From the NCBI RefSeq assembly GCF_040730185.1, contig NZ_CP160402.1:6944001-7008000 (forward strand): a stretch of 64,000 nucleotides of DNA, given 5' to 3'. Made by a program: the position numbers and the translations under genes. Below, piece after piece: positions 22,223 to 45,993 of the stretch; the first letter of the stretch is position 1; every line of letters begins with the position of its first letter. This DNA comes from Streptomyces sp. Je 1-332. Lineage in GTDB: Bacteria; Actinomycetota; Actinomycetes; Streptomycetales; Streptomycetaceae. The notes below the pieces were generated by a model that saw only the letters and a list, made by a program, of their open reading frames with translations, ran no database searches and had not been told where the DNA came from.

Positions 22223-23218
22223 TCAACTGTCGCGAACTCCGGACAGCACAAGCCGCCTGCACTCGCCTGGGCTGCCCCAAGCTCCGCGCAGCGCCCGCGC
22301 CTTGGTCAGCCACAGCGACAGGTCGTACTCAGCGGTGTAACCGATGGCCCCGTGCAGTTGCAGGGCTGCCCGCGCGGCGCCGTACGCTGCTTCGCTTGCC
22401 GCAACCTTCGCCGCCGCCACATCCGCCGTCCGCAGGGTCAACGCTGCCCCGAACAGCAGGGGCCGGGCGAACTCAAGGCTGATGAGGACGTCCGCGAGGC
22501 GGTGCTTGACCGCCTGGAAGCCGCCGATCGTCGTGCCGAACTGGGTCCGCTGCTTCACGTACGCGACTGTCTTGTCGAGCAGCGCGAGTCCCACCCCCAA
22601 GGCCTGCGCGGCCGTCGCGAGCGAGGCCCAGTCGGCTGCCGTCCGGGACGCCTCCGTCACCGCTCGGCCCGAAGCGAGGAGCTCGCCGCCCGGCCGTAGC
22701 CGAGCCAGGCGCCGGGCCGGGTCCAACGACCGCTCCACGCGCGCGTGCCCGGCGGCCAGACGCAATGCGCCCTCCGCGGCGGTCAGCCGCAGTGTCGCCG
22801 CGTCCGCGTCCAGGGCGAACGGCCCTCCTTCGGGGAGAGCGAGCGTCGTGACGGCCTCCCCGGAGGCCAACGGCGGAAGGAGCCGCTTGGCCGGGGCCGC
22901 CTCACCCAGCTCGGCGAGGCGTGCGAGCAGCGCACCCGCCGCGACCGTCTCGACCACCGGTCCCGGCACCGCATGCCGCCCCAACTCCACCAGGGCGACG
23001 GCCATGTCGACCGGCCGCAGCCCCACCCCCTCGTACTCCTCCGGGACGGCAAGAGCAAAGACACCCGCGTCGGCGAGGCGCCCCCACACGGCACGCCCCG
23101 GCATGTGGTCCCCGGCGGCCCACGCCCTCGCGGCGGCCGGGGTGTCCGCCGCCGCCGTCAGCATCGCGTCGAGGGAGCGCGCGAACTCGCGCTGCTCGTC
23201 GTCGAGGAGGAACCTCAT
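22223..23218 (-). CDS. fadE32: Acyl-CoA dehydrogenase, short subunit (FadE32/FadE33-like)
   Basis: This 331-residue acyl-CoA dehydrogenase starts MRFLLDDEQREFARSLDAML. It is clearly shorter than usual (~380-400), as are FadE32 and FadE33 of Mycobacterium tuberculosis. These pair with a longer subunit to make alpha2-beta2 enzymes in steroid ring degradation. The C-terminal domain has TQFGTTIGGFQAVKHRLAD and LHGAIGYTAEYDLSLWLTKA, where the Glu after YTA is the expected catalytic base. The ATG overlaps the stop of the longer dehydrogenase gene (TGATG). The pair should therefore make a heteromeric enzyme acting late in HIP catabolism. I prefer FadE32 over FadE33 from the FadE31-FadE32 gene order, but this is not certain. 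Confidence 0.75.
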   Translation of the reverse strand: MRFLLDDEQREFARSLDAMLTAAADTPAAARAWAAGDHMPGRAVWGRLADAGVFALAVPEEYEGVGLRPVDMAVALVELGRHAVPGPVVETVAAGALLARLAELGEAAPAKRLLPPLASGEAVTTLALPEGGPFALDADAATLRLTAAEGALRLAAGHARVERSLDPARRLARLRPGGELLASGRAVTEASRTAADWASLATAAQALGVGLALLDKTVAYVKQRTQFGTTIGGFQAVKHRLADVLISLEFARPLLFGAALTLRTADVAAAKVAASEAAYGAARAALQLHGAIGYTAEYDLSLWLTKARALRGAWGSPGECRRLVLSGVRDS

Positions 23219-24402
23219 CAGCGGCGTCCCTTCGGAAGTCCGAGCAGCCGCTCGGCGATGATGTCGCGCTGGATCTCGTTCGTGCCCGCGTAGATCGGCC
23301 CGGCGAGCGAGAAGACGTACCCCTCGGCCCACTCGCCCCGGTCGTCGCCGCCGCCCTCGCCGCCCTGATCCGCCAACTCGCCCTCAGGGCCCAAGAGATC
23401 AAGTGCGGTCTCGTGCAGCGCGATGTCGTACTCGGACCAGAAGACCTTGTTCAGGCTCGATTCCGCGCCGATCGTCTCGCCCGCCGCGAAGCGCGAGGCG
23501 TTGGCCCAGGTGAACAGCTGATAGGCGCGGGCGCCGACCACGGCGTCGGCGACCCGGTCGCGCAGCGCGGTGTCCGTGGGGTCGCCGTGCGCGCGCCACC
23601 GCCGCACCAGGCGGTCCGCCGTGGCGACGAAGCGGCCGGGGGAGCGCAGTGTCAGGCCGCGTTCGTTGCCCGTCGTCGACATGGCGATCCGCCAGCCCTG
23701 GCCCGGCTCACCGATCACGTCCACGTCCGGCACGAAGACGTCGTCGAGGAAGAGCTCGGCGAACGCGGGCTTTCCGTCGAGGCGCCCGATGGGGCGGACG
23801 CTCACGCCGTCCGCGTCGAGCGGGAACATCAGGTAGGTCAGGCCCCGGTGCGGCTTGCCTTCGTCGTTTCCGCGCGGATCGCTGCGGAACAGGCCGAACG
23901 CGCGGTCGGCGAACGTGGCTCGCGACGACCAGGTCTTCTGACCGCTGATCAGCCAACCGCCGTCCGTGCGGCGTGCGGTGGAGCGCAGAGACGCGAGGTC
24001 CGAGCCGGACTCGGGCTCGGACCAGGCCTGCGCCCAGATCACCTCGCCGCGCGCCATCGGCGGCAGCACGCGGGCGCGCTGCTCGTCGGTGCCGAAGTCG
24101 AAGAGGGTCGGCGCGAGGAGGTTGATGCCGTTCTGCGAGACCCGCCCCGGGCCGCCCGCGGCGAAGTACTCCTCCTCGAACATCAGCCACCTGACGATGT
24201 CGACGCCCTGCCCGCCGAACTCCTCGGGCCACGAGACCACCGACCAGCGGTCGGCCGCGAGCTCGCGCTCCCAGGCGCGGTGCGCCGCGAAACCCTCCCG
24301 AGTCTCCAGGGACGGCAGCGGCGCGGCGGGCACGTGCCCGGCGAGCCAGTCGCGCGCCCGCTGCCTGAACTCCTCTTCCTCGGCGGTGAAGTCGAGGTCC
24401 AT
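23218..24402 (-). CDS. fadE31: Acyl-CoA dehydrogenase, long subunit (FadE31-like)
   Basis: This 394-residue acyl-CoA dehydrogenase has the N-terminal helical domain (FTAEEEEFRQRARDWL), the flavin and substrate motif AQAWSEPESGSDLASLRSTA, and the C-terminus AGPIYAGTNEIQRDIIAERLLGL. The segment GAESSLNKVFWSEYDIALHETA is, as I recall, characteristic of FadE31 of the Mycobacterium KstR2 regulon. The usual catalytic Glu position in the C-terminal half is occupied by Ala-Gly-Thr, which suggests that the partner subunit supplies the base. It is the first gene of a two-gene operon. The start at 24402 (MDLDFTAEEEEF) has GAGG ten bases upstream. A KstR2-type site lies 44 bases upstream, shared with the divergent ipdF. 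Confidence 0.82.
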   Translation of the reverse strand: MDLDFTAEEEEFRQRARDWLAGHVPAAPLPSLETREGFAAHRAWERELAADRWSVVSWPEEFGGQGVDIVRWLMFEEEYFAAGGPGRVSQNGINLLAPTLFDFGTDEQRARVLPPMARGEVIWAQAWSEPESGSDLASLRSTARRTDGGWLISGQKTWSSRATFADRAFGLFRSDPRGNDEGKPHRGLTYLMFPLDADGVSVRPIGRLDGKPAFAELFLDDVFVPDVDVIGEPGQGWRIAMSTTGNERGLTLRSPGRFVATADRLVRRWRAHGDPTDTALRDRVADAVVGARAYQLFTWANASRFAAGETIGAESSLNKVFWSEYDIALHETALDLLGPEGELADQGGEGGGDDRGEWAEGYVFSLAGPIYAGTNEIQRDIIAERLLGLPKGRR

Positions 24403-24445
24403 CAGTGGCCCACCTCTTCGTCCGGATTCTTCGCCAGGCTTCCCT

Positions 24446-24459
24446 AACAAGTGTTTGGT
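24446..24459. promoter_or_regulatory. KstR2-type operator, fadE31/ipdF promoter region
   Basis: AACAAGTGTTTGGT matches the KstR2 consensus AnCAAGnnCTTGnT, as I recall it from mycobacteria, at 9 of 10 defined positions, the only change being C to T in the right half. It lies in the 131-bp gap between divergent fadE31 and ipdF. The same pattern occurs at 33876-33889. Confidence 0.82.
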
Positions 24460-24533
24460 AGATTACTCTGGGTCGGGTCAGGCGTCGAGAGTGAGTCGAG
24501 AGCCGTGAGCCACGAGAGTGGAGGGGGCCGAGC

Positions 24534-25316
24534 ATGGACGCGCCCACGTACGTGCCGGGGCACGGTCTGCTCGCGGGCCGCACCGCCGTCATCACCGCCG
24601 CGGCCGGAGCGGGCATCGGCGGCGCCACCGCCCGCCGCTTCCTGGAGGAGGGCGCGCGGATCGTCATCGGTGACGCCCACCCGCGCCGCACCAAGGAGGC
24701 GGTGGAGGCGCTGGCCGGGGAGTTCGGCGCCGACCGGGTCGCGGGGGTGCCGTGCGACGTGACGGACGAAGCGCAGGTGCAGGCTCTGTACGACCTGGCG
24801 GAGCAGTGCCACGGCGCCCTGGACATCGTCGTGAACAACGCGGGACTCGGCGGCACCGCCGAGCTCACCGAGATGACCGACGAGCAGTGGGACAGAGTCA
24901 TCGACGTGACGCTGAACGGCACGTTCCGTTCCACCAGGGCCGCCCTGCGCCGCATGCGGGCCGCCGACCGGGGCGGCGTGATCGTGAACAACGCCTCGGT
25001 GCTCGGCTGGCGCGCCCAGGCCGGACAGGCGCACTACGCGGCGGCGAAGGCGGGCGTCATGGCCCTCACCCGCTGCGCAGCCGTCGAGGCCGCGCCCCAT
25101 GGCATACGGATCAACGCGGTGTCGCCCAGCCTCGCCATGCATCCGCACCTCGCGAAGGTCACGTCGCCGGAGCTGCTCGAAGAGCTCACCGCGCGCGAGG
25201 CGTTCGGGCGCCATGCCGAGCCGTGGGAGATAGCCAACGTCATCGTCTTCCTGGCCAGTGAGTACTCCTCGTACATGACGGGGGAGACGGTGTCGGTCAG
25301 CAACCAGCACGCCTAG
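24534..25316 (+). CDS. ipdF: SDR 5-hydroxy-HIP-CoA dehydrogenase/reductase (IpdF-like)
   Basis: This 260-residue short-chain dehydrogenase has a Rossmann start GRTAVITAAAGAGIGGATARR (an unusual AAGAGIG in place of TGxxxGIG), VNNAG, and the catalytic Ser-Tyr-Lys in NNASVLGW and HYAAAKAG. The AAAGAGIG form, the sequence GVIVNNASVLGWRAQ and the C-terminus YSSYMTGETVSVSNQ are, from memory, shared with IpdF (Rv3559c). IpdF interconverts 5-hydroxy-HIP-CoA and HIP-CoA in steroid C/D-ring catabolism. It is the first gene of ipdF-kstR2-fadA6. The next start lies 16 bases after its stop. Confidence 0.82.
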   Translation: MDAPTYVPGHGLLAGRTAVITAAAGAGIGGATARRFLEEGARIVIGDAHPRRTKEAVEALAGEFGADRVAGVPCDVTDEAQVQALYDLAEQCHGALDIVVNNAGLGGTAELTEMTDEQWDRVIDVTLNGTFRSTRAALRRMRAADRGGVIVNNASVLGWRAQAGQAHYAAAKAGVMALTRCAAVEAAPHGIRINAVSPSLAMHPHLAKVTSPELLEELTAREAFGRHAEPWEIANVIVFLASEYSSYMTGETVSVSNQHA

Positions 25317-25331
25317 GCGGAGAATGACCGT

Positions 25332-26006
25332 GTGTCGAATCAGAAGCAGAGCAGCACCACGAACCAGCAGAGCAGCACCACGAACCAGCAGAGCAGCACC
25401 ACCAAGAAGAAGGCCCCCGTGAGCTCGCCCGAGCGCCGCGGTGAACTCCTCGCCATCGCCGCCGACGTCTTCGCCGAGCAGGGGTACAACGCGACCACGG
25501 TCCGTAAGATCGCGGACGCCGCCGGCATGCTCGCCGGCAGCCTCTACTACCACTTCGACTCCAAGGAGTCGATGCTCGAAGAGATCCTTTCGACCTTCCT
25601 CACCGAGCTGTGGGAGGGGTACGACACCGTGCTCCAGTCGCGGCTCGGCCCCCGCGAGACCCTCGAAGCACTCGTCACCGAGTCCTTCCGGGAGATCGAC
25701 CGGCACCGCTCCGCCGTCGCCATCTACCAGAAGGAGTCCAGGCACCTGGTCGCGCAGGCACGCTTCCAGTACCTGACCGACTCGCAGCAGCGCTTCGAGA
25801 AGGCATGGCTGACGACACTGGAGCGCGGAGTCGCGGAGCGCGTCTTCCGCGACGACCTGGACATCCGGCTCGCCTACCGCTTCGTACGCGACACCGTCTG
25901 GGTCGCCGCGTCCTGGTATCGCCCCGGCGGCGGCCACAGCCCCGAGGAGATCGCCCGCCAGTACCTCTCGATGGTCCTGGACGGCATCGCCGTACGCACC
26001 ACGTAG
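25332..26006 (+). CDS. kstR2: TetR-family repressor KstR2
   Basis: This 224-residue TetR regulator has its helix-turn-helix at about residues 57-78 (TTVRKIADAAGMLAGSLYYHF) and an effector domain that includes QKESRHLVAQARFQYL and RDTVWVAASWYRPGGG. These last segments resemble KstR2 of Mycobacterium tuberculosis (Rv3557c), which responds to HIP-CoA and represses the C/D-ring genes. It lies between ipdF and fadA6, its place in mycobacteria. The start is GTG at 25332 with GGAG eight bases upstream. The first ~30 residues are an extra low-complexity tail of three QQSSTTN repeats, which may be disordered. Targets are predicted at 24446-24459 and 33876-33889. Confidence 0.85.
   Translation: MSNQKQSSTTNQQSSTTNQQSSTTKKKAPVSSPERRGELLAIAADVFAEQGYNATTVRKIADAAGMLAGSLYYHFDSKESMLEEILSTFLTELWEGYDTVLQSRLGPRETLEALVTESFREIDRHRSAVAIYQKESRHLVAQARFQYLTDSQQRFEKAWLTTLERGVAERVFRDDLDIRLAYRFVRDTVWVAASWYRPGGGHSPEEIARQYLSMVLDGIAVRTT
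25344..25406. repeat. Three 21-bp tandem repeats in the kstR2 5' end
   Basis: Units at 25344, 25365 and 25386 encode KQSSTTN, QQSSTTN and QQSSTTK. The length is a multiple of three, so copy-number changes would keep the frame. The repeat codes for a Gln/Ser/Thr-rich tail before the DNA-binding domain. Confidence 0.9.
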
Positions 26007-26063
26007 AGCGCGCGTCGTCGCCCGGCGACCGCACCGACCGAGGAGCACGAGGAGTACGCAGTC

Positions 26064-27221
26064 ATGGCCGAGGCCTACATCGTCGAAGCGGTCCGCACCC
26101 CCGTCGGCAGGCGCAAGGGCGGTCTCTCGGCCGTCCACCCCGCCGACCTGGGAGCCCATGTCCTCAAGACACTCGTCGAGCGCACCGGAATCGACCCCGC
26201 CGCCGTCGAGGACGTCGTCTTCGGCTGTCTGGACACGGTCGGGCCGCAGGCCGGTGACATCGCCCGCACCTCCTGGCTGGCGGCAGGTCTGCCCGAAGAG
26301 GTACCCGGCGTGACGATCGACCGGCAGTGCGGATCCTCGCAGCAGGCCGTGCACTTCGCGGCGCAGGGCGTCCTGTCCGGCACACAGGATCTCGTCGTCG
26401 CGGGCGGCACACAGAACATGTCGATGATCCCCATCGCCTTCGCCTCCCGGCAGGCCGCCGAACCCCTCGGCCTCACCGAAGGCCCGTATGCGGGCAGCGA
26501 GGGCTGGCGCGCCCGATACGGCGAGCGGCCCGTCAACCAGTTCCACGGCGCCCAGCTGATCGCGGAGAAGTGGGGCATCACCCGCCGCGACATGGAGGAG
26601 TTCGCCCTCCGCTCGCACCAGCGAGCCGTCCGGGCCATCGACGAGGGCCGCTTCGACCGCGAACTCACCGCCTATGGGGACGTGACCACCGACGAGGGCC
26701 CACGCCGTGACACGACCCTGGAGAAGATGGCAGGCCTCAAGCCCGTCCTGGACGACGGCACCATCACCGCCGCCTGCTCCTCACAGGTCTCCGACGGCGC
26801 CGCCGCCATGCTGATTGCCGGCGAACAGGCCGTGCGGGAAAACGGGTTGACGCCGCGCGCCCGCATCCACCACCTCTCCGTGCGCGGTGAGGACCCCATC
26901 CGGATGCTGTCCGCGCCGATCCCCGCGACCGCGTACGCCCTCAAGAAGACCGGCATGAACATCGGCGACATCGACCTCGTCGAGATCAACGAAGCCTTCG
27001 CGCCGGTCGTCATCGCCTGGCTGAAGGAGACCGGCGCCGACCCGGAGAAGGTCAACGTCAACGGCGGTGCGATAGCCCTCGGCCACCCTCTCGGCGCGAC
27101 CGGTGTCAAACTGATGACGACGCTCCTGCACGAACTGGAGCGCACAGGCGGCCGGTTCGTCCTCCAGACCATGTGTGAAGGCGGTGGCCAGGCGAACGTG
27201 ACCATCATCGAGCGCCTCTGA
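26064..27221 (+). CDS. fadA6: Acetyl-CoA acyltransferase FadA6 (steroid C/D-ring thiolase)
   Basis: This is a 385-residue thiolase. The nucleophile is Cys89 in VTIDRQCGSSQQA. His and Cys of the second half appear in [20 protein letters not shown] and MCEGGGQANVTIIERL. It strongly resembles my memory of FadA6 (Rv3556c), including DRQCGSSQQA, LIAEKWGI, ARIHHLSVRGEDPIRML and FAPVVIAWLKE. In the HIP pathway FadA6 cleaves the open ring-C product made by IpdAB, releasing acetyl-CoA. The ATG is 57 bases after kstR2. No terminator is obvious in the 129 bases before the next gene. Confidence 0.88.
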   Translation: MAEAYIVEAVRTPVGRRKGGLSAVHPADLGAHVLKTLVERTGIDPAAVEDVVFGCLDTVGPQAGDIARTSWLAAGLPEEVPGVTIDRQCGSSQQAVHFAAQGVLSGTQDLVVAGGTQNMSMIPIAFASRQAAEPLGLTEGPYAGSEGWRARYGERPVNQFHGAQLIAEKWGITRRDMEEFALRSHQRAVRAIDEGRFDRELTAYGDVTTDEGPRRDTTLEKMAGLKPVLDDGTITAACSSQVSDGAAAMLIAGEQAVRENGLTPRARIHHLSVRGEDPIRMLSAPIPATAYALKKTGMNIGDIDLVEINEAFAPVVIAWLKETGADPEKVNVNGGAIALGHPLGATGVKLMTTLLHELERTGGRFVLQTMCEGGGQANVTIIERL

Positions 27222-27350
27222 CGGCGTCCAGCAGCGCACCCGAGCTTCACCCCTTGCGGGAGTTGCTGCCCGGACCCCGCACCGCGAGGCCCACTCCCCG
27301 GCTAGTCTCGATGTCTGTACGTCGATTGAGCGACCTCGGGAGGTAGCGCG

Positions 27351-29999
27351 ATGACGCAGGGACGGCCCGGAGGTGGCACCTGGGCCCCGCTGTGGGAGCG
27401 CGACGTGGAAGTCGCCGCGGCCGCACGGGCCGTTGACGAACTGTGCTCCGACGCGACGACCACGGGCGGGCTGCTCGTCTTCCAGGGCGAGGCGGGCATC
27501 GGCAAGACGGCGCTGCTCGCCGAGGTGCGCCGCATCGCGGAGGGGCGGGCCACGGTGTGGTCCGCACGGGGCGGCGAGACCGTCACGTCCGTCCCCTTCA
27601 ACGTCGTACGTCAGCTGTTGCAGCCGGCGCTCGTCGGACTCGCCCCGGAACTGGCGCGGGAGTATCTCGGCGACTGGTACGAGATCGCGGGCCCCGCACT
27701 CGGCATAGCCGAGCCGACCGGTGTCCAGGCCGACCCGTAAGGCGTGTGCGACGGCCTGGTCGAGGCGGTGGCACGCCTCGCGGGGCTGCACTGGCCGCTG
27801 GTCCTGCTCATCGACGACGCGCACTGGGCCGACCAGGAGACCCTGCACTGGCTGGCCGCCTTCGCCCAGCGCCTCGATGAACTGCCCGTCCTCGTCGTGG
27901 TCGCCCACCGGCCCGACGACGCCACCGGTGACAGCGCCCGCCACCTCGCGGCGGTCGGCGCCGCGGCCCGTCCCTCGCCCCCGCTGCGCGCGCTCACCCC
28001 GGACGCGGCCGCCGGTCTCACCCGGGCGACCCTCGGCGAGCACGCGGACGCCCCGTTCTGCCGCGAGGTGTGGGCGGTCACCGGCGGCAATCCGTACGAA
28101 TCCGTGGAACTGCTCGCCAAGGTGCAGGACAGCGAACTCGAACCGGTGGAGAGCTCCGCCGCCGAACTGCGCGCCCTGAACCGTTCGGCGCGCGGCCGCG
28201 GACTCGTCGCCCGGCTCGAGGGCCTCGGCACGGACGTCAACCGGTTCGCGTGGGCGGCCGCGATCCTGGGCACCGCCATCCCGCTCGACCTCGCCGCATC
28301 GCTCGCCGGGATGACCCGCGACACGGCCGAGCGGTGCGCGGAGCGGCTGCGCACCGCGCGCATCCTGCTCGGCGCAGACGACGCCCTGGAGTTCGTCCAT
28401 CCGCTGATCGCGAGCACCGTCTACCGCTCGATCCCGCCCGCCACCCGCACCGCGTTCCACGGCCAGGCAGCCTGGGCCGTCACCCTGTCGGGGCGTGGCG
28501 CGGCGGCCGCCTCCCGGCACCTCCTCGAGGTTCATCCGGACGACGACCCCGAACTGGTCAAGCAGTTGCGCGAAGCGGCGGCCGAGCATCTCGCGGTCGG
28601 CGCGCCGGACGCGGCCCGCCGCTGTCTCGAACGGGCTTTGCGGGAACCGCCGTTGCCCGAGACCCACGCGCGTGTGCTCTACGAACTGGGCTGTGCCACG
28701 CTCCTCACCTCGCCCGTCACGACCATCGGTCACCTGCGCGAGGCGCTCAACACGCCGGGTCTCGACCGCAAGCTGCACGTGGACGCGGTGTGCCGTCTCT
28801 CCCAGGCCCTGGTGCACAACGACCAGTTGGAAGAGGCCCTGCGCGTCGTGGACGCCGAGGCCGAGCGGCTCGACCCCGGCCCCGACCGGATGCGTCTGCA
28901 GGGCGTCCACTACATGTGGGAGGGCATCTATTCGCGCGAGGAGGACGCGACGGGCCGTTCGCGCCGCCTGGCCGCGCTGGCGGGACCGCTGCCGGGACGC
29001 GACAACTCCGAGCGCGCCCTGCTGATCCTGCGCGCCTTCGACGCCATGACCCGCGGGGAGAACGCGGAGGAGATCGTCGACCTCTGCGACCGCGCCCTCG
29101 TCAACGGCCGCCTAGCCCCGGGGCTCGGCTGGACCGACACGGAGTGGGGCTTCGAGCTCCTGACGATGCTGGGCGGTGCGTACATCTTCACCGACCGCCT
29201 CGACCGCGCCGAGAGCGTCTTCGCCGAGGGTGTCCGTGCCTACGAGGCCGCCGGTTGGAGCGGCGGCCATCTGGCGGTCGCCAAGGCCTGGTTGGGTCTG
29301 GTGTACCGCAGGCGCGGACGTCTCGTCGAGGCGGAGGCCTCGCTGCGGGAGAGCCTTCGTCTCACCGACCGTGTGGGCAGTGGTCTGCCGATGCACTGGG
29401 ACGCCGCGTGCAAGCTCATCGACACGCTGCTCGCCCGGGGCAGGGCCGACGAAGCCCAGGAGGTCGCCGACCGCTACGGCATCGCGCCGCCCTATCCGTC
29501 CACGATCCTCCTGCCCGACATCCACTCGGTGCGGGCCCGCCTGCTGATCGCCACGGGCCAACGGCCCGAATGCATAAGCGAGTTGGAGGTGGCGTCGAAA
29601 GCGGCGAACGAGCGAGGCCGCTACAACACGGTCGTCAACCCCTGGGCGTACGACCTCGCCCGCGTGCTCGCCGAGGAGGACCCCCGCCGGGCCGCGGACC
29701 TGGTCGCGGACGCACGGGTCCAGGCGGAGCTCTTCGGCACGGACACCGCGATCGGCGAGGCGCTGCGATGCGCGGCTTACCTGGAGACCGGTCAACGGGC
29801 GATCGAACTGTACGCCCGAGCAGCCGCCTGCCTGGAGGCGTCCCCGTGCGCCTACGAACATGCGGTCGCACGGGTCGAGTACGGAATCGCGGCAGGCTCC
29901 GAATCCGAACTGGCCCGGGGCCTCTCCCTGGCAAAATCCTGCGGAGCCGACGGCTTGGCCGCTCGGGCACGGGCTTCTATGGAGGTGGCGGGGGTTTGA
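27351..29999 (+). pseudogene. ATP-binding LAL-type regulator, interrupted by a stop and lacking the HTH
   Basis: Two consecutive open frames in the same reading frame (27351-27740 and 27744-29999) form one protein of about 880 residues interrupted by a single TAA at 27738-27740. The first part has Walker A GEAGIGKTALL. The second has Walker B VLLIDDAHWADQ and continues as a long helical TPR-like region, as in LuxR-family ATP-binding (LAL) regulators. The context DP-stop-GVCDGL suggests a former Gln codon (CAA to TAA). The LuxR-type HTH expected at the C-terminus is missing: the frame ends at GLAARARASMEVAGV. GGAGG precedes the ATG at 27351. It is probably inactive, unless the stop is suppressed or a downstream start yields a partial product. 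It splits the steroid gene cluster. Confidence 0.75.
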
Positions 30000-30158
30000 G
30001 TGGGCCTCACCGGTAGTGGAACCGGGGCACGCCCGCGCAGCCCCGGGGGCTCTGCTGCGGGCCGCATTGCTCGTTCGCCGGGCACGCGGGCTCCCTCAGC
30101 CGGGGGCGACAGCTGGTGTCCCGGGCGTGGTGCGTCTGTGGAGGCGGCGGGGGTTTGA
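29967..30158 (+). repeat. Duplicated 33-bp gene end, copies 159 bp apart
   Basis: The last 11 codons of the LAL-like gene (29967-29999) encode ARASMEVAGV-stop. At 30126-30158, in the same frame phase, the sequence encodes RGASVEAAGV-stop. The final 22 bases differ at one position. The second copy looks like the end of a lost paralogue. Confidence 0.7.
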
Positions 30159-30337
30159 GTGCGGGGCTCTGCCCCGGGCGGCGCTGGTGAGGGCTTCCCC
30201 GGCTCTTGATGCCGGGGCCAGCCTCCCGGGCCTCGGCGCTGCACTCCGCCTCCCGGGGTCCTGCCGCCGGGCCGTGCTCGGCGAAGCCGGGATCGGCGGC
30301 GCGCAAGGTCCGGGCAGAGGGGCTGGGCAGGGTCTGT
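30000..30337. other. Non-coding scar between the LAL-like pseudogene and ipdC
   Basis: These 338 bases hold no convincing gene on either strand. They contain the second copy of the gene-end repeat (30126-30158) and several short G+C palindromes of the type CGGGGCTCTGCCCCGGG (from 30162), which are common between Streptomyces genes. The composition and the remnant suggest a deletion scar. Confidence 0.6.
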
Positions 30338-31405
30338 TCAGGGCAGGGGTAGCCGCCGTGCCACCTCCGCTGCTTCGGTCATCACACGCGTGACCAGCTC
30401 CTCGCACGACGGCAGGTCCTCGATGATGCCCGCCACCTGGCCCGACGCCATGACACCCGCCTCCGGTAGCCCGTCCACCATCGCCGACTTCAGCATCATC
30501 GGTGTGTTCGCGGCCAGCAGGATCTGACTCCACGTCATCCCCTTTCCGTGCCGCATCGCGAGTCCGTCCCGGGCCATCTCCGCCCACCCCATGCCGGATA
30601 TCCTGCGGAACGCCGCCGCGTGCCGCACGGCCCGTGCCAGGGATGCCCCACGTCCCGACTTCTCCAGGGACGCGACCAACTCCGTCCGCAGCATCCGATG
30701 GGGAAGGCCGTCCACCCGCGTGGTCACCGTGACGTCCTTGACCGACGCAGCCAGATAGCGGGCCTTGACCGCGTCAGGCACCGTCGAGTCAGACGTGAGC
30801 AGGAAGCGCGTGCCCATCGCGACCCCAGCCGCGCCATAGGCGAGCGCGGCCACGAGCCCCCGGCCGTCGAAGAAGCCGCCCGCCGCGATCACCGGAATGT
30901 CCACCGCGTCCACGACCTGCGGCAGCAGCACGGTCGTCGCGACCTCGCCCGTGTGCCCGCCGCCCTCACCGCCCTGCACGACGACCGCGTCCGCACCCCA
31001 CGCCGCGACGTTCTCGGCATGCCGACGCGCGCCGATGGACGGGATGACGACCACGCCCGCGTCCTTCAGTTCCGCGATCAGCTCCTTGGAGGGGGCCAGC
31101 GCGAAGGACGCGACCCGCACCCCCTCGTCGACGATGACCCGCACCCGGTCCCGCGCGTCGCCCGCGTCGGCACGGAGATTGACCCCGAAGGGCTCGCCCG
31201 TACGGGACTTGACCTCGCGGACTGCCGCGCGCAGCTGGTCGAGGGTCATCGTCGCGGAGGCGAGGATGCCGAGCGCGCCCGCGTTCGCCGTCGCGGAGAC
31301 CAGGCGAGGGCCCGCCACCCAGCCCATGCCGGTCTGCACGATCGGGTACCGGACACCGACCAGCTTGGTCAGCGCCGTCTCCATGCCCGCCGGAGCCGCC
31401 GTCAC
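30338..31405 (-). CDS. ipdC: Flavin-dependent oxidoreductase IpdC
   Basis: This 355-residue TIM-barrel flavoprotein belongs to the nitronate monooxygenase/2-nitropropane dioxygenase family. The N-terminus is YPIVQTGMGWVAGPRLVSA, the FMN phosphate segment is AVVVQGGEGGGHTGEV, and VIAAGGFFDGRGLVAAL with GVAMGTRFL completes the site. In the KstR2 regulon the equivalent gene (Rv3553, ipdC) encodes a flavin-dependent enzyme needed in C/D-ring breakdown, near the IpdAB step. The GTG start overlaps the stop of ipdB (GTGA), so it is last in the coupled unit echA20-ipdA-ipdB-ipdC. An ATG seven codons in (31384) is an alternative start. Identification rests on the family plus gene order. Confidence 0.85.
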   Translation of the reverse strand: MTAAPAGMETALTKLVGVRYPIVQTGMGWVAGPRLVSATANAGALGILASATMTLDQLRAAVREVKSRTGEPFGVNLRADAGDARDRVRVIVDEGVRVASFALAPSKELIAELKDAGVVVIPSIGARRHAENVAAWGADAVVVQGGEGGGHTGEVATTVLLPQVVDAVDIPVIAAGGFFDGRGLVAALAYGAAGVAMGTRFLLTSDSTVPDAVKARYLAASVKDVTVTTRVDGLPHRMLRTELVASLEKSGRGASLARAVRHAAAFRRISGMGWAEMARDGLAMRHGKGMTWSQILLAANTPMMLKSAMVDGLPEAGVMASGQVAGIIEDLPSCEELVTRVMTEAAEVARRLPLP

Positions 31406-32199
31406 GAACGCACCTCGCGCTCGCGCAGAGCTCGCGGGTCCACCACGTCCCGGATCAGCCGCAGTTCCTCCGCGGTCGGCTCGCGGGTGCGGGGGACGTC
31501 ATCCGGCATCGCGAGCGCGAAGCCCGTCGACTCGCGCACCTGCTCGACCGTCACGCCCGGATGCAGGGACACCAGCCGCATCGCGTGGTCCGTGGCTCCG
31601 AAGTCGAGGACACCGAGGTTCGTCACCACCCGGCGCAGATCGTGGAACCGGGTCGCGGAAGGCCCTGCCGCCGCGGCACTGTCGTAGCCGACGCCGCTGA
31701 TCATGTCGACCTTCTCGACGAAGACGCGGGTCGAGTGACGCGGAATCCAGTAACTCACCGGGTTGTTGAGGGTGTTGACGGGCGCTCCCCGCACCCCGAG
31801 CAGCTGGCGCCTGGGCCGCTCCCAGTCGCCGATGCAGGAAATGTTCTGGTTTCCGAAGCGGTCGATCTGGCTCGCGCCCATCATCACGTGCCGTCTGCCG
31901 CCCATGACCATCGTCAGATGCCTGCGGTACGGCAGCCAGCCCTCCGTCACCGCCGACCGCGCCCCCACGGCGGGCACATCGCCGATCAGGAGCGCCTCCC
32001 CGTCCGTGAGCAGGAGGTCCGGCGAGAACGTCAGCTTGGCCAGGCGGGCGGCGATCGAAGGGATCGTGCCCATCGGGGACGCGAGGATCTCACCGGCGTC
32101 CCGCCAGGCCTCGGCGCAGGCGATCACGCAGTACTCGGCGCGGGTGGCGGAGGCCGGCGCGGAGGCACCGGCGGTGGCCGTCGGGTCGGTGCGCGTCAT
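31402..32199 (-). CDS. ipdB: CoA-transferase-like ring hydrolase subunit IpdB
   Basis: This 265-residue protein has a class I CoA-transferase beta-subunit fold. IpdB lacks transferase activity and with IpdA hydrolyses the last steroid carbocycle (COCHEA-CoA). Segments such as LTDGEALLIGDVPAVG, GGRRHVMMGASQIDRFGNQNIS and NHPVSYW-like LNNPVSYWIPRHS are, from memory, typical of IpdB. The usual transferase glutamate motif is replaced, consistent with a hydrolase. The true start is ATG at 32199, overlapping the ipdA stop (ATGA); the longer open frame upstream is not used. The N-terminal ~17 residues are a Ser/Ala/Thr-rich tail. Confidence 0.87.
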   Translation of the reverse strand: MTRTDPTATAGASAPASATRAEYCVIACAEAWRDAGEILASPMGTIPSIAARLAKLTFSPDLLLTDGEALLIGDVPAVGARSAVTEGWLPYRRHLTMVMGGRRHVMMGASQIDRFGNQNISCIGDWERPRRQLLGVRGAPVNTLNNPVSYWIPRHSTRVFVEKVDMISGVGYDSAAAAGPSATRFHDLRRVVTNLGVLDFGATDHAMRLVSLHPGVTVEQVRESTGFALAMPDDVPRTREPTAEELRLIRDVVDPRALREREVRS

Positions 32200-33059
32200 C
32201 GCTGCTCCTTGTGCCAGGCCCGGACGGCCGCTTGATAGTCCCGCTCGGTGCCGGTGAGGAAGCGCTCCTCGAATTGCTTCCAGGCGTCCGGGTCTCCCGC
32301 GGCTGTGGCGTAGGCCTTCTGGAAGGGCTCGTCGCGGCCGTAGTCCGGCACGCACGACGTGAAGTGCGCGCCGTCGGGTGTCTCGGTCACGCCCGTCACC
32401 GCGTGCCGGGAGATCAGTATCGTCTGCGGCGCCGCGTGCTCGGTGAGCTCGCTCGACTCGACGATCCGTTCGCACGACACGAACGCCGTGTCGGCCGCTT
32501 CGCAGAACAAGTCGTCGAAGTACGGGTCCGGACCCAGATACTGGGCGTTGCCCAGACGGTCGGCGCGGTTCAGGTGCACCAGCGCGGCGTCCATCCGCAG
32601 GGCGGGCACCGCGACCAGCTCCTCCCCGTCCTCGTACGGCGAAGTGACCGTACGCAACTGGGGGTTGACCCGCAGGACGTCCGAACCGAGGCCCGCCCGG
32701 ATCGGCAGGAACGGCAGCCGCTGGGCACCGGCCGTCAGGCCCTGCATGAACATCGCCTCGTCCAGCTCGACCAGTTCGAAGGCGCCACGCTCGCGTGCCG
32801 CGCGGAAATGCGGCTCCAGAGGGATCGAATCGAGGGTCGTGAACGCCGTGACCAGCTTGCGGATCTTCCCCGCAGCCGCGAGCAGGCCGACGTCCGGACC
32901 GCCGTACGAGACGACGGTGAGGTCCGTGATTCCGGACCGCAGAAGGGCCCGCACCAGCGCCATGGGCTTGCGGCGCGACCCCCAGCCGCCGATGCCGAGC
33001 GTCATCCCGCTCCGCAACCGCCCCACGATCGCGTCGGGCGTCATGGTCTTGTCCGTCAT
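32196..33059 (-). CDS. ipdA: CoA-transferase-like ring hydrolase subunit IpdA
   Basis: This 287-residue alpha subunit is the partner of IpdB. The N-terminus has the GIGGWGSRRKPMALVRALL loop, which in CoA transferases binds CoA and in IpdA carries this GWGSRRKPM form. An acidic stretch ELVELDEAMF (95-104) lies where the catalytic Glu of IpdA is expected. VRVNPQLRTV-like VLRVNPQLRTVTSPYE and YLGPDPYFDDLFCEAAD complete the match. Together with IpdB it should open the last ring in steroid catabolism. The ATG overlaps the stop of echA20 (ATGA), and its own stop overlaps the ipdB start. Confidence 0.87.
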   Translation of the reverse strand: MTDKTMTPDAIVGRLRSGMTLGIGGWGSRRKPMALVRALLRSGITDLTVVSYGGPDVGLLAAAGKIRKLVTAFTTLDSIPLEPHFRAARERGAFELVELDEAMFMQGLTAGAQRLPFLPIRAGLGSDVLRVNPQLRTVTSPYEDGEELVAVPALRMDAALVHLNRADRLGNAQYLGPDPYFDDLFCEAADTAFVSCERIVESSELTEHAAPQTILISRHAVTGVTETPDGAHFTSCVPDYGRDEPFQKAYATAAGDPDAWKQFEERFLTGTERDYQAAVRAWHKEQR

Positions 33060-33841
33060 GCCCTGTCCTCCCCCTTCCGGGCCTCCCCGGTGTCTGTCAC
33101 GGAGCCCGCACCGAAGTCCTCGCGGATCCGGCCCGCCAGGCCGCTCAAATTCGCCTCGAAGGTGAAGCCCTGCTCGAAGCGGTAGCTCCGGTGCACGTCC
33201 ACGGGGTCGATGCCGTTGATCGCGGCTTTGGCGAACCGCAGCAGCGTCCCGTCCTTCCGTGCGATCTCGCGAGCCAACTCCAGTGCCGCGTCACGCAGTT
33301 CCTCGGGCGGCACCACCCGCCACACGGAGCCGTGCGCGTGCAGTTCGGCCGCGGTGGCCGTGCGCGAGGTGTAGTACAGGGCGCGCATCAGGTGCTGCGG
33401 CACCAGGCGGGCGAGATGCGTCGCGGCACCGAGCGCACCCCGGTCCAGCTCGGGCAGGCCGAACGTCGCGTCCTCGCTCGCCACGATCGCGTCGGCGTTC
33501 CCGACGAGGCCGATGCCGCCGCCCAGGCAGAAGCCGTGCACCGCGGCCACGACCGGCACCTCGCATTCGTACACCGCCGAAAAGGCCTCGTAGCACCCGC
33601 GGTTGGCGCCTATCAGAGCGTCGTGGCCGCTGTCTCGCTGCATCTCCTTGATGTCCACGCCCGCGTTGAAACCGCGGCCCTCGGCGGCGAGGACGACGCA
33701 GCGCGTCTCGGGGTCGCGGCCCGCCGCGCGGACGATGGCGGCCAGGTCGAACCACCCCTGCACGGGCAGGGCGTTGACCGGTGGGAAGTCAACGGTGACG
33801 ACGGCCACGCCCTTGTCCGGGGCGGAGGTGGAGACAGACAT
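33056..33841 (-). CDS. echA20: Crotonase-fold ring D hydrolase EchA20
   Basis: This 261-residue enoyl-CoA hydratase/isomerase superfamily protein has oxyanion-hole segments GFNAGVDIKEM and HGFCLGGGIGLV, and FGLPELDRGALGAATHLARLV in the catalytic region. In the equivalent operon of mycobacteria EchA20 (Rv3550) hydrolyses steroid ring D of the HIEC-CoA intermediate. It is the first gene of the echA20-ipdA-ipdB-ipdC unit and lies 67 bp from a divergent SDR gene, with a KstR2-type site between them. A GAAAGGTAGC ribosome binding region precedes the start. Confidence 0.87.
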   Translation of the reverse strand: MSVSTSAPDKGVAVVTVDFPPVNALPVQGWFDLAAIVRAAGRDPETRCVVLAAEGRGFNAGVDIKEMQRDSGHDALIGANRGCYEAFSAVYECEVPVVAAVHGFCLGGGIGLVGNADAIVASEDATFGLPELDRGALGAATHLARLVPQHLMRALYYTSRTATAAELHAHGSVWRVVPPEELRDAALELAREIARKDGTLLRFAKAAINGIDPVDVHRSYRFEQGFTFEANLSGLAGRIREDFGAGSVTDTGEARKGEDRA

Positions 33842-33851
33842 CAGAGGATCC

Positions 33852-33904
33852 GCTACCTTTCAACCAGGCCCTTCAACCAAACATTTGTTAGTTGGAAAGG
33901 TAGC
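33852..33904. repeat. Mirrored leader sequences flanking a KstR2 site
   Basis: GCTACCTTTCAAC (33852-33864) and GTTGGAAAGGTAGC (33891-33904) are inverted repeats differing by one inserted base. Each contains the ribosome binding sequence GAAAGGTAGC of one of the two divergent genes, so the region is symmetrical around the KstR2-type site at 33876-33889. Confidence 0.8.
33876..33889. promoter_or_regulatory. KstR2-type operator, echA20/SDR promoter region
   Basis: ACCAAACATTTGTT fits AnCAARnnYTTGnT, the same pattern as the site at 24446-24459 (each half has one G/C to A/T change against the mycobacterial consensus as I recall it). It lies 35 bases from the echA20 start and 19 bases from the SDR start, a position expected for a repressor. 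Confidence 0.82.
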
Positions 33905-33908
33905 AGCG

Positions 33909-34685
33909 ATGACTGACACCCGACAGGTGGTCGTCGTCACCGGCGGCACCCGAGGCGTCGGCGCCGGTATCGCCCGCAGCTTCCTCGCCGCCGGCGCGCG
34001 GGTCGTCGTCTGCGCACGCAGACCGCCGGACCACCCGGTCGAAGTGGCGGGCGCAGCCGCCGAGTTCCGGCCCCTCGACCTGCGCGACGCGGAGGCGGCC
34101 CACGCGTTCTTCGCGGACGTCGCCGCCGATCACGGCCGATTGGACGCTTTGGTGAACAACGCGGGTGGCACGCCCTTCGGGCTGCTGGCCGATTCCGCAC
34201 CCGCCCGCCAGGCGAAGATCGTCGAACTCAACCTGCTGGCCCCGCTGTACGCGTCCTTGGCGGCGTACGAAGTGATGCGATGCCAGGAACGTGGCGAGGG
34301 CGGCGGGGGCAGCATCACCATGATCGGGAGCGTGAGCGGCTCCCGGCCCTCACCCGGCTCCGGCGCCTACGGCGCGGCCAAGGCGGGCCTGGAGAACCTC
34401 GCGCGCACGATGGCCGTCGAATGGGCCCCCGAGGTGCGCGTGAACACCGTGGTGCTCGGCCTCGCCCGCACCGAGAGCGCCCACTTGCACTACGGCGACG
34501 AGGACGGCATCGCGGCGGTCGCCCGCACCGTGCCGCTCGGCCGCCTCGCCGATCCGTCGGACGTGGGGGACGCGTGCGTGTTCCTCGCCTCCGACAGCGC
34601 GCGCTACATCAGCGGCGCCGCACTGCATCTGCACGGCGGCGGCGAACGCCCCGCGTTCCTGGACGCCGCATCCGTCAACCACTGA
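33909..34685 (+). CDS. SDR oxidoreductase of the KstR2 regulon (Rv3549c-like)
   Basis: This 258-residue short-chain dehydrogenase has TGGTRGVGAG (cofactor loop), VNNAGG, catalytic Ser in IGSVSGSRP and Tyr/Lys in AYGAAKAG. The ARR in VVVCARRPP after the second strand suggests NADP(H). From memory the sequence resembles Rv3549c (GVRGVGAG, NNAGGSPY, AYGAAKAGLENL, VEWAPKVRVN), which is divergent from echA20 in mycobacteria exactly as here. Its substrate is not firmly established. GGAAAGG lies about eight bases before the ATG. The following SDR gene starts 38 bases after its stop. Confidence 0.82.
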   Translation: MTDTRQVVVVTGGTRGVGAGIARSFLAAGARVVVCARRPPDHPVEVAGAAAEFRPLDLRDAEAAHAFFADVAADHGRLDALVNNAGGTPFGLLADSAPARQAKIVELNLLAPLYASLAAYEVMRCQERGEGGGGSITMIGSVSGSRPSPGSGAYGAAKAGLENLARTMAVEWAPEVRVNTVVLGLARTESAHLHYGDEDGIAAVARTVPLGRLADPSDVGDACVFLASDSARYISGAALHLHGGGERPAFLDAASVNH

Positions 34686-34723
34686 ACGCTTCAGACCAGT
34701 TCCGCACGAGCGAGGAGTTCCGC

Positions 34724-35656
34724 ATGACCTCAGCCAGCAAGCCGGACGCGGGTGTCTGCGCGGGCCGCGTCGTGATCGTCACGGGTGCGGGCCGTGGCCT
34801 AGGCAGGGCGCACGCGCGCGCGTACGCAGCCGAGGGCGCCAAGGTCGTCGTCAACGACCTCGGGGTGGGGCCCGACGGCTCCGGAGCTTCCGCCGGGCCC
34901 GCGCACGACGTCGTGGAGGAGATCCGCGCGGCGGGAGGCGAGGCCGTCGCGCACGGCGGTGACATCGCCACGTCCGAGGGCGCCGCATCCCTGGTGCGGG
35001 CCGCGCTCGACGCGTACGGGTGCCTCGACACCCTCGTCAACAACGCGGGATTCCTGCGGGACCGCATGCTGGTCAACCTCGGGGACGACGACTGGGACGC
35101 GGTGATGCGCGTCCATCTGAAGGGGCACTTCCTGCCGCTGAAGCACGCCGCCGCGTATTGGCGCGGCGAGGCGAAGGCGGGGCGCACGCGGCACGCGTGC
35201 GTGGTCAACACCAGCTCCGGTGCGGGCCTGTTGGGGAGCGTAGGGCAGGGGAACTACAGCGCGGCCAAAGCCGGGATTCTCGGGCTCACCCTGGTGGCCT
35301 CCGCGGAACTCGCCGCCTACGGAGTGCGCGTCAACGCCATCGCGCCCGCCGCGCGCACGCGGATGACGGAGCGCACCTTCGCGGACACCATGGCCGCGCC
35401 CGAGGGAGGCGGCTTCGACGCGATGGCTCCGGAGAACGTGTCGCCGGTCGTGGTGTGGCTCGGCTCCGAGCCGTCCGCGGGTGTCTCGGGACGTGTCTTC
35501 GAAGCCGAGGCGGGGCGCATCACCGTCATGGAGGGCTGGCGCCACGGACCGACGGCCGACAAGGGGGCCCGCTGGACCCCGGCCGAGGCGGGCGACGCGG
35601 CGCTCAAGCTCCTCGCCGCGGCTCAGGCGCCTCAGCCGGTGTACGGGGCGCGTTAG
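34724..35656 (+). CDS. SDR oxidoreductase of the KstR2 regulon (Rv3548c-like)
   Basis: This 310-residue short-chain dehydrogenase has VTGAGRGLGRAHA and VVVNDLG after the second strand (Asp suggests NAD(H)), LVNNAGFLRDRML, NTSSGAGLLGSVGQGNYSAAKAG and VNAIAPAARTRMTE. This form, with NDLG and GFLRDRM, is the longer SDR class related to multifunctional enzyme type 2 hydroxyacyl-CoA dehydrogenases. It occupies the position of Rv3548c. A role as a 3-hydroxyacyl-CoA dehydrogenase in side-chain or ring-product beta-oxidation is plausible but unproven. The start at 34724 has GAGGAG eight bases upstream. A terminator follows, marking the end of the steroid cluster. Confidence 0.82.
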   Translation: MTSASKPDAGVCAGRVVIVTGAGRGLGRAHARAYAAEGAKVVVNDLGVGPDGSGASAGPAHDVVEEIRAAGGEAVAHGGDIATSEGAASLVRAALDAYGCLDTLVNNAGFLRDRMLVNLGDDDWDAVMRVHLKGHFLPLKHAAAYWRGEAKAGRTRHACVVNTSSGAGLLGSVGQGNYSAAKAGILGLTLVASAELAAYGVRVNAIAPAARTRMTERTFADTMAAPEGGGFDAMAPENVSPVVVWLGSEPSAGVSGRVFEAEAGRITVMEGWRHGPTADKGARWTPAEAGDAALKLLAAAQAPQPVYGAR

Positions 35657-42016: not shown

Positions 42017-43129
42017 CTACTCCTCGGCGAGGACCCGCTGTGCCACCGCGAACGCCGAATTGGCGGCGGGCACACCGCAGTAGACGGCTGTCTGGAGCAG
42101 CACCGCGCCGATCTCCTCGGGCGTGAGCCCATTGCGGCGGGCCGCCCGCACATGCATGGCGAGCTCGTCGTAGTGCCCGTGCGCGACCAGAGCGGTCATG
42201 GTGATCATGCTGCGTTCGCGGTGCGCGAGGGTGGGGTCGGTCCAGATCTCGCCCCAGGTGTAGCGGGCGATGAAGTCCTGGAAGCGGGCCGTGAAGGGCG
42301 TGGTGTTCGCCTGCGCGCGGTCCACGTGCGCGTCCCCGAGGACGGCCCGGCGCACGGCCGCCCCGCTCGCCGGCGCCCCCGTCAAGTGCGTGCGCAACGC
42401 GGCGGTCACGGCCTCCGGGCGCTCGGCCGGCGCCAGATGCGACGCGCCCGCCAGCTCCGTCAGGGAGGCGCCCTGCACCGCGTCGGCGATCTCGCGGGCG
42501 TGGGCGGGCGGCGTCGCCGGATCCTCGCGGCCCGCGACGACGAGCGTGGGAGCGGTGATCGTCGCCAGCGACTCCCTGATGTCGTACGAGGCCAGCGCGT
42601 CGCAGCACGCGGCGTACGCGTCGGGGTCGGTGGTCCGGAGGTCGTCCACCAGGCGGGGGACCGTGAAGCCGGGGGTGAACCAGCGCTCCGGCGCGCTCTC
42701 CGCGAGGCCGGCGAGACCTTCGCGGCGAACGAGTGCAGCCCGCTCCTCCCAGCGCGCACTGCCGCCGAAGTGCGCCGAGGAGCAGATCACGGCGAGGCTC
42801 GCCACCCGCTCCGGGTGGTGCGCGGCCAGATGCAGGCCGACGGCGCCGCCGAGGGAGACGCCCGCGTACGCGAAGCGGTCGATGCCGAGGGAGTCGGCGA
42901 GCGCGATGACGAGGGCGGCCAGGTCGGCGACGGTCGCTCCCGGAGCGATCAGCTCGGCGGGGGATCTGCCGTGACCGGGCAGGTCCCAGCGTATGACCCG
43001 GTGGGTGGTGGCGAGTTCGGGCGCCACGGCGTCCCACAGGGCGGTGGAGGTGCCGACGGAGGAGCCGAGGAGAAGCGGGGGAGCGGTCGGGGCGCCCTCG
43101 GTGGTGTGGTGCGGCAGCTTGCTGGTCAT
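42017..43129 (-). CDS. pcaL: PcaL: fused 3-oxoadipate enol-lactonase / 4-carboxymuconolactone decarboxylase
   Basis: This 370-residue fusion protein catalyses two successive steps of the protocatechuate pathway. Residues ~1-255 form an alpha/beta hydrolase (PcaD) with nucleophile motif YAGVSLGGAVG and the catalytic His in GASHLAP. Residues ~265-370 form carboxymuconolactone decarboxylase (PcaC) with MITMTALVAHGHYDELAMHV and Glu/Cys motifs GLTPEEIGAVLLQTAVYCGVPAAN. This fusion is known from Rhodococcus and Streptomyces. The ATG overlaps the pcaB stop (ATGA). It is the last gene of pcaIJFHGBL. Confidence 0.92.
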   Translation of the reverse strand: MTSKLPHHTTEGAPTAPPLLLGSSVGTSTALWDAVAPELATTHRVIRWDLPGHGRSPAELIAPGATVADLAALVIALADSLGIDRFAYAGVSLGGAVGLHLAAHHPERVASLAVICSSAHFGGSARWEERAALVRREGLAGLAESAPERWFTPGFTVPRLVDDLRTTDPDAYAACCDALASYDIRESLATITAPTLVVAGREDPATPPAHAREIADAVQGASLTELAGASHLAPAERPEAVTAALRTHLTGAPASGAAVRRAVLGDAHVDRAQANTTPFTARFQDFIARYTWGEIWTDPTLAHRERSMITMTALVAHGHYDELAMHVRAARRNGLTPEEIGAVLLQTAVYCGVPAANSAFAVAQRVLAEE

Positions 43130-44628: not shown

Positions 44629-45179
44629 TGGAACTCCAGGAACACCGTTTCGCCCTCGCCCTGAAGGCGGATGTCGAAACGGTACGTGTGGCTCGCCTCC
44701 GGGCGGGCGACCAGCGTCGTACGCCGCGCCGGGTCGAGGGAGCCGAGGAGCGGGTCGCCCGGTTCGTCGACCAGGTAGGCCCGCGTGTACAGGTGGTGGA
44801 GCAGACCGCGCGCGAAGACCGCGACCGCGACGTACGAGACGCCGCCCGGCGGGAGCGTCCGGACGCTCCAGTGTCCGTCCGCGTCGGTCGGGACGCGGCC
44901 GAACCCGGTGAACGCGACGCCGTCGCGGCCGATGACCCCGCCCGTGACGGGGTCGTGCCGCAGCGACCCCGGCGCACCCGTGCGGGAGCCGTCGGGCGCG
45001 GGCTGCCAGGTCTCGATGAGCGCGTCGGGTACGGGGTTTCCCGCGCCGTCGTACACATACCCGTGCAGGGTGATCGTCTCCGGGTGGCCGGTCGGTGCGA
45101 CCTCGCCGCCCCGTGGGAAGGGCAACGCGTAGCCGTAGAAGGGGCCGACGGTCTGGGAGGGAGTCGGAGCGTACGACAT
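44625..45179 (-). CDS. pcaG: PcaG: protocatechuate 3,4-dioxygenase alpha subunit
   Basis: This 184-residue alpha subunit of the intradiol ring-cleaving dioxygenase starts MSYAPTPSQTVGPFYGYALP. It has the beta-sandwich motifs LHGYVYDGAGNPVPDALIETWQ and FTGFGRVPTD. Like other PcaG proteins it lacks the full iron-ligand set, which is in PcaH. Its stop overlaps the pcaB GTG, and its ATG overlaps the pcaH stop (TGATG), consistent with stoichiometric expression of the two subunits. Confidence 0.92.
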   Translation of the reverse strand: MSYAPTPSQTVGPFYGYALPFPRGGEVAPTGHPETITLHGYVYDGAGNPVPDALIETWQPAPDGSRTGAPGSLRHDPVTGGVIGRDGVAFTGFGRVPTDADGHWSVRTLPPGGVSYVAVAVFARGLLHHLYTRAYLVDEPGDPLLGSLDPARRTTLVARPEASHTYRFDIRLQGEGETVFLEFQ

Positions 45180-45949: not shown

Positions 45950-45993
45950 GTCTCTCGGCTCCGTGAGGACGGCGTGCTCGGAAAGGGGGAGGG

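Follow-up and report, generated by a model that had tools for sequence, protein, structure and literature searches.

What would a Streptomyces strain do with genes for the last two rings of a steroid? This question was raised by a gene cluster of Streptomyces sp. Je 1-332, located at positions 22223 to 35656 of a 64,000-nucleotide stretch (contig NZ_CP160402.1, positions 6,944,001 to 7,008,000) that we refer to as the window. An earlier note, made from the letters of the window alone, had read the cluster as a KstR2-regulated set of genes for degradation of rings C and D via methylhexahydroindanedione propionate (HIP). The note had also suggested that the missing steroid genes were located elsewhere in the genome or that the strain used the module on HIP-like compounds taken up from outside. 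The results presented here indicated that the locus is a maintained KstR2-type HIP cluster in a genome without a credible match to KshA, HsaC, or KstD, and we consider it probable, although far from settled, that the strain uses HIP-type acids released by other steroid degraders.

Eleven HIP-pathway genes were found in the cluster, and they form four runs: fadE32-fadE31 (minus strand), ipdF-kstR2-fadA6 (plus strand), ipdC-ipdB-ipdA-echA20 (minus strand), and two short-chain dehydrogenase/reductase (SDR) genes (plus strand). All 11 were reciprocal best hits, at 50 to 68% identity, of genes in a 100-kb Mycobacterium triplex stretch that contains its HIP cluster, and the named genes lie at the positions and on the strands that had been claimed for them. 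The genes and the two putative operators are listed below; percentages are identities to the M. triplex reciprocal best hit, and scores against family models are followed by the model cut-off.

22223..23218, minus strand: fadE32, acyl-coenzyme A (acyl-CoA) dehydrogenase, small partner, start uncertain (M. triplex FadE32, 50%)
23218..24402, minus strand: fadE31, acyl-CoA dehydrogenase (58%; three ACAD Pfam domains)
24446..24459, plus strand: putative KstR2-type operator 1, AACAAGTGTTTGGT, in the fadE31/ipdF intergenic region
24534..25316, plus strand: ipdF, SDR (62%; NF005880, 444 bits, cut-off 336)
25332..26006, plus strand: kstR2, TetR-type repressor (50%; 196 bits to 4w97, which is named KstR2, and 224 bits to 2ibd)
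26064..27221, plus strand: fadA6, thiolase (63%; NF005865, 694 bits, cut-off 591)
30338..31384, minus strand: ipdC, flavin mononucleotide enzyme of the NMO/FabK type, start uncertain (68%; NMO domain)
31402..32199, minus strand: ipdB, hydrolase beta subunit, start uncertain (56%; 330 bits to 6co6 chain B)
32196..33059, minus strand: ipdA, hydrolase alpha subunit (56%; 347 bits to 6co6 chain A)
33056..33841, minus strand: echA20, crotonase-type ring D hydrolase (63%; NF005925, 416 bits, cut-off 260)
33876..33889, minus strand: putative KstR2-type operator 2, AACAAATGTTTGGT, in the intergenic region between echA20 and the Rv3549c-type gene
33909..34685, plus strand: Rv3549c-type SDR, with the ATG at 33909 taken from the sequence (55%; NF005893, 367 bits, cut-off 255)
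34772..35656, plus strand: Rv3548c-type SDR (64%; NF005861, 473 bits, cut-off 373)

Orthologs of IpdA, IpdB, IpdC, IpdF, EchA20, and FadA6 were all together in the cluster, as were FadE31 and FadE32; the fadE32 product scored 147 bits with the IpdE2 model, below its cut-off of 450. The best structure matches of IpdA and IpdB were chains of 6co6 and 6con, and the alignment indicated that IpdA retains the Glu that is replaced by Ala in chain 6coj. Entry 6co6 is titled CoA-transferase, and we take it to be IpdAB. The gene names of M. triplex are ones that we assumed from gene order (Table 1 of PMC5380842) together with background on the pathway. Its HsaC, KstD, FadD3, and IpdE2 proteins pass curated models; no curated model exists for FadE30. 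In the case of Rhodococcus koreensis, 10 of the 11 cluster genes had a reciprocal partner, and the partner was credible for nine. The partner of FadE31 (39%) was the FadE30 gene of R. koreensis and FadE32 had no partner, in a comparison with R. koreensis stretches that did not include its fadE31/fadE32 genes. The reciprocal-best-hit check, which the earlier note had proposed for M. tuberculosis proteins and which was run here with M. triplex, came out in favor of the whole set, and with R. koreensis it did so for nine genes. As the note had stated, neither FadD3 nor FadE30 is encoded in the cluster, and fadE33 was not found there either.

The second part of the earlier claim concerned regulation. 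The KstR2 protein matched the structures listed above and its WYRPGG stretch was unchanged, and both divergent promoters of the cluster have, by sequence, a 14-bp palindromic operator of the KstR2 type. The Streptomyces operator motif AACAARYGTTTGGT, which was drawn from these clusters, has the same 14-bp layout as the mycobacterial KstR2 box, given in PMC3068626 as AnCAAGnnCTTGnT. In the 40 Streptomyces clusters sampled, 74 sites matched the motif exactly or with a single mismatch, and every one of them was intergenic; 34 clusters had two sites and six had one. No site at this level was found in 24 control stretches (480 kb), which were the locus-2 stretches (see below) of eleven genomes. A scan of the 8.27-Mb genome of the strain yielded two exact sites (both in the cluster) and 14 sites with two mismatches, the latter compared with five for a reversed control pattern; no site had a single mismatch. 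Because the motif was derived from the same clusters, its presence in them is no independent test, and only its rarity elsewhere is. Since no further close operator was found in the genome, the predicted regulon, as judged by the operator, comprises the cluster and nothing else. When two mismatches were allowed, the raw mycobacterial motif matched at 79 places in the window against a mean of 44 by chance; it was too loose and was replaced by the Streptomyces motif.

We also scanned seven loci of mycobacteria and relatives with the mycobacterial box. Exact boxes were present at three cluster promoters, including that of fadE30/fadD3, in M. triplex (L073) and Mycobacterium moriokaense (L057). 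Another M. triplex stretch (L093) had two of those promoters plus one site elsewhere, and the remaining loci had two sites (L101 and L005), one site (L019), or none (L003). Judged in this way, the window has a KstR2 ortholog and a palindromic operator in a conserved motif variant, and the KstR2-type regulation put forward in the earlier note is the predicted one.

A steroid degrader of the mycobacterial kind would also need genes for rings A and B. The genome of the strain is a single contig, 100% complete by the tool's figure, and it was searched for three markers of this upper pathway. The KshA C-terminal domain (KshA_C) had no match in the genome (three reference genomes were positive), and HsaC and KstD had no credible match there, with best scores of 37.7 and 23.3 bits, respectively; the HsaC and KstD query proteins themselves exceed the curated cut-offs. 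Hence, a complete aerobic 9,10-seco pathway, which would have KshA, HsaC, and KstD in the genome, is not predicted for this strain, and the option of HIP-like compounds from outside survives. The genome search that the earlier note had proposed was successful for fadD3 and fadE30, for which candidates were found, and not for HsaC.

These candidates were located far from the cluster. Candidates for all three of the genes missing from it share one 24-kb stretch at 3562420-3586244, 3.4 Mb away (locus 2), as the first option of the earlier note would have it, and in view of these candidates we rejected the idea of a simple loss of the missing genes. The FadD3 candidate (3562420-3564024) was 52% identical to the M. 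triplex protein in the genome search (522 bits; runner-up, 302) and scored 803 bits with the FadD3 family model, the cut-off of which is 657. The FadE30-type enzyme (3585018-3586244) was 59% identical to the M. triplex protein (412 bits; runner-up, 241). In a midpoint-rooted tree of 45 sequences, the locus-2 FadE30-type proteins (n = 11; support, 100/99) stood beside the in-cluster and mycobacterial FadE30 proteins (n = 20; 90/85), and support for the whole FadE30 group, locus-2 proteins included, was 97/89. Between the FadD3 and FadE30-type genes was an IpdE2 candidate (3570730-3572034) that was 43% identical to the in-cluster FadE33 of other Streptomyces, with a best score of 224 bits versus 74 bits to their FadE32. 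IpdE1 corresponds to FadE30 and IpdE2 to FadE33, and the two together form one enzyme according to PMC8708139. By its gene content, the system is a predicted lower pathway, separate from the upper pathway and spread over two loci.

Locus 2 is part of a catabolic island (3562420-3598090) with Ltp2-type, ChsH2-type, and FMO-type proteins, an HsaB-like reductase (193 bits; cut-off, 230), two ligases, and a second dehydrogenase pair. Eleven island genes between 3575938 and 3593357, among them the FadE30-type gene, had reciprocal hits in 40-kb stretches of all 10 other Streptomyces that were sampled. In the same stretches, the IpdE2 candidate was reciprocal in eight and FadD3 in one, because FadD3 falls outside most of them; the distance between the FadD3 and FadE30-type genes was 24 to 52 kb in all eight genomes with both coordinates listed.

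To see how general this arrangement is, we surveyed 392 genomes of the genus, including that of the strain itself. Thresholds were chosen on score gaps, co-occurrence tables were compiled by hand from per-marker genome lists, and the counts take no account of relatedness. IpdB alone stands for the whole cluster in these counts; in all 30 best-hit loci, its gene was accompanied by ipdC, ipdA, and echA20. IpdB was present in 277 genomes (threshold, 1e-90; 277 of 297 listed matches were counted, leaving out 19 weak matches and one middle match), a FadE30-type enzyme in 275 (1e-100; in-cluster and locus-2 types pooled), and FadD3 in 277 (1e-110; a few of the counted matches reached only about 1e-125). 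IpdB and the FadE30-type enzyme occurred together in 271 genomes, IpdB alone in six, the FadE30-type enzyme alone in four, and neither in 111 (phi, 0.94). For IpdB and FadD3, the corresponding numbers were 271, six, six, and 109 (phi, 0.93), and all three were present in 265 genomes. The six IpdB-positive genomes without a FadE30-type match were all assemblies of 310 to 1350 contigs, and the six without FadD3 were assemblies of 50 to 1010 contigs.

The upper-pathway marker KshA was present in 40 of the 392 genomes, all of them IpdB positive, which left 237 genomes with IpdB and without KshA. The KshA scores were bimodal across the genus (8.5e-78 or better versus 4.3e-28 or worse); at the threshold of 1e-75, 40 of 109 listed matches were counted, and the other 69 were taken as other Rieske enzymes. 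HsaC reached 1e-75 or better in 38 of the 40 KshA genomes and, among the 99 matches listed, in no KshA-negative genome. A 39th KshA genome (G227) was counted with HsaC on the basis of a partial match (6.8e-60) located 7 kb from its KshA, a score that KshA-negative genomes such as G257 (2.7e-69) surpass, and the remaining 60 listed HsaC matches were read as other dioxygenases. One further genome, G184, had two KshA matches yet no clear HsaC (best, 7e-52, 40%). For comparison with this KshA frequency of about 10%, a 2016 survey, as described in PMC4810484, assigned a steroid pathway of any kind to two of 57 Streptomyces genomes. Among KshA-negative genomes with a FadE30-type match, 42 scored weakly and 17 held two. 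Twenty 20-kb stretches picked for weak locus-2 FadE30 scores contained a canonical in-cluster FadE30 in 16 cases and kshA in 12, and because of how they were picked, 16 of 20 is no genus rate; in another sample of 20 clusters, FadE30 was found in two (G310 and G197).

The pathway genes appeared to be maintained. All 11 reading frames are open, and the ratios of nonsynonymous to synonymous substitution (dN/dS) relative to four relatives were 0.08 to 0.32, excluding an IpdF value for L156 that was derived from a paralog.

In the route that we infer, from the substrate, its uptake, and the inducer through every catalytic step, HIP would be taken up from outside and converted to HIP-CoA by the FadD3 of the unlinked locus. 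In the presence of HIP-CoA, KstR2 would come off its two operators, and the cluster's four transcription units would thereby be switched on. A dehydrogenase of the IpdE1-IpdE2 type, also from the unlinked locus, would take part in removal of the side chain, and its product would be made ready for the next steps by IpdF and IpdC. Hydrolysis of ring D by EchA20 and of ring C by IpdAB would follow, and the action of FadA6 and FadE31-FadE32 would lead to acetyl-, propionyl-, and succinyl-CoA.

Several observations weigh against this reading. No operator with at most one mismatch was found at the FadD3 or FadE30-type gene in the genome scan, so both would fall outside KstR2 control. The locus-2 FadE30 group and the in-cluster type differ from each other (identity to M. 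triplex FadE30, 55% and 65 to 69%, respectively), and the IpdE2 candidate scored 211 bits on the IpdE2 model, below the curated cut-off of 450, and scored M. triplex FadE32 (114 bits) and FadE33 (110 bits) alike; both enzymes may have another substrate. In addition, the co-occurrence of IpdB, FadE30, and FadD3 is uncorrected for relatedness, and absence of the upper pathway was judged by KshA, HsaC, and KstD only. In a rival reading, the regulon would degrade a different hydrindane, for example a terpenoid or another polycyclic product, which the unlinked 3.56-3.60 Mb island would convert to a HIP-CoA-like acid by a route other than 9,10-seco chemistry. The conserved island core around the FadE30-type gene in all 10 sampled Streptomyces, the island's Ltp2-type and ChsH2-type proteins, FMO-type oxygenase, HsaB-like reductase, second ligase, and second dehydrogenase pair, and the parallel distribution, within the genus, of IpdB and the FadD3 and FadE30-type genes of the island fit such a route. 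However, part of the island may belong to an unrelated pathway, and the 50 to 68% identity of the cluster enzymes to the mycobacterial HIP cluster and the unchanged WYRPGG stretch of KstR2 argue for the same intermediates as in the mycobacterial pathway. We regard a different hydrindane as unlikely, and we are equally doubtful of its extension to most Streptomyces species, in which an orphan lower pathway would have its KstR2 regulon fed by the co-inherited island with HIP-CoA-like acids from a non-classical soil compound.

Two further explanations are less probable than these. Degradation of whole steroids by upper-pathway enzymes too divergent for our searches would suit the kshA found beside the cluster in some Streptomyces (the 12 of 20 picked stretches noted above) and the reviews PMC6678751 and PMC9782250, which count Streptomyces among steroid degraders. 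It is improbable given the lack of KshA_C and the low HsaC and KstD scores in the strain's own genome, the clean split of KshA scores, and the company that HsaC keeps with KshA across the genus. That the cluster is a disused remnant of a steroid pathway since lost could be suspected from the missing upper-pathway markers and from a stop codon in a gene inside the cluster (27405-29999). This is the least likely explanation, as all 11 pathway genes are open and have low dN/dS values, both operators are exact, and IpdB has been kept in 237 genomes that lack KshA. The reading in which HIP-type acids come from other degraders is the one that we carry forward.

The gene with the stop codon is of the AAA/TPR type and lies between fadA6 and ipdC; it has one in-frame stop, and it is intact (855 to 883 amino acids) in three relatives (L156-L158). 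It was not counted as a pathway member, and several other genomes have no such gene at this place. A protocatechuate/beta-ketoadipate (pca) cluster was found at 42017-48664, 6 kb from the HIP cluster. It was rejected as a regulon member because no operator with two or fewer mismatches was present there. The substrate of the pca thiolase closely resembles the final intermediate proposed for HIP breakdown, by analogy from the pathway in PMC5380842, and action of this thiolase on the last HIP beta-keto acid would be speculation.

The HIP pathway is laid out in PMC5380842, and the KstR2 regulon and HIP pathway described for Mycobacterium tuberculosis and Rhodococcus jostii RHA1 (PMC5380842, PMC3068626) have eleven homologous genes and a TetR-type KstR2 in common with the cluster studied here. 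The 14-bp palindromic operator is at the same two divergent promoters here and in the mycobacterial cluster, as compared with M. triplex, but the operator core is CAARYGTTTG rather than CAAGnnCTTG, and the third operator (fadE30/fadD3 promoter) of M. triplex and M. moriokaense is missing. In contrast to the M. tuberculosis and R. jostii RHA1 regulon, the cluster does not include fadD3, fadE30, or fadE33, and the genome has no credible match to KshA, HsaC, or KstD. In the cholesterol pathway of Saccharopolyspora hirsuta, as presented in PMC8708139, fadD3 is also outside the clusters, but fadE30 and fadE33 are inside the HIP cluster and whole cholesterol is degraded. The clusters of KshA-positive Streptomyces (G294, G349, G321, and others) have the HIP core and operators seen here, but they also have FadE30 in the cluster and kshA nearby.

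The 2016 survey, as given in PMC4810484, counted 55 of 57 Streptomyces genomes without steroid pathways, and Streptomyces is named among steroid-degrading or -transforming genera in PMC6678751 and PMC9782250. Release of steroid intermediates and cross-feeding are treated in PMC8399759, and the reference list of PMC5380842 includes a 1977 paper whose title concerns HIP metabolites in Streptomyces rubescens. No paper describing an orphan HIP lower pathway in Streptomyces was found among titles and abstract openings, a search outside of which most subscription papers fall; with such sparse coverage, this negative is weak evidence of novelty. The earlier note's remark that steroid ring degradation is little described in Streptomyces was fair for the genes, but the cluster marker itself is common.

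A genus once counted as nearly free of steroid pathways thus has the ring C/D marker IpdB in 277 of 392 genomes, 237 of them without KshA. The cluster may supply the genetic basis for the 1977 S. rubescens report on HIP, which is known to us by its title only. The distribution suggests a division of labor in soil, in which the opening of rings A and B would fall to some bacteria and the remaining steps to Streptomyces.

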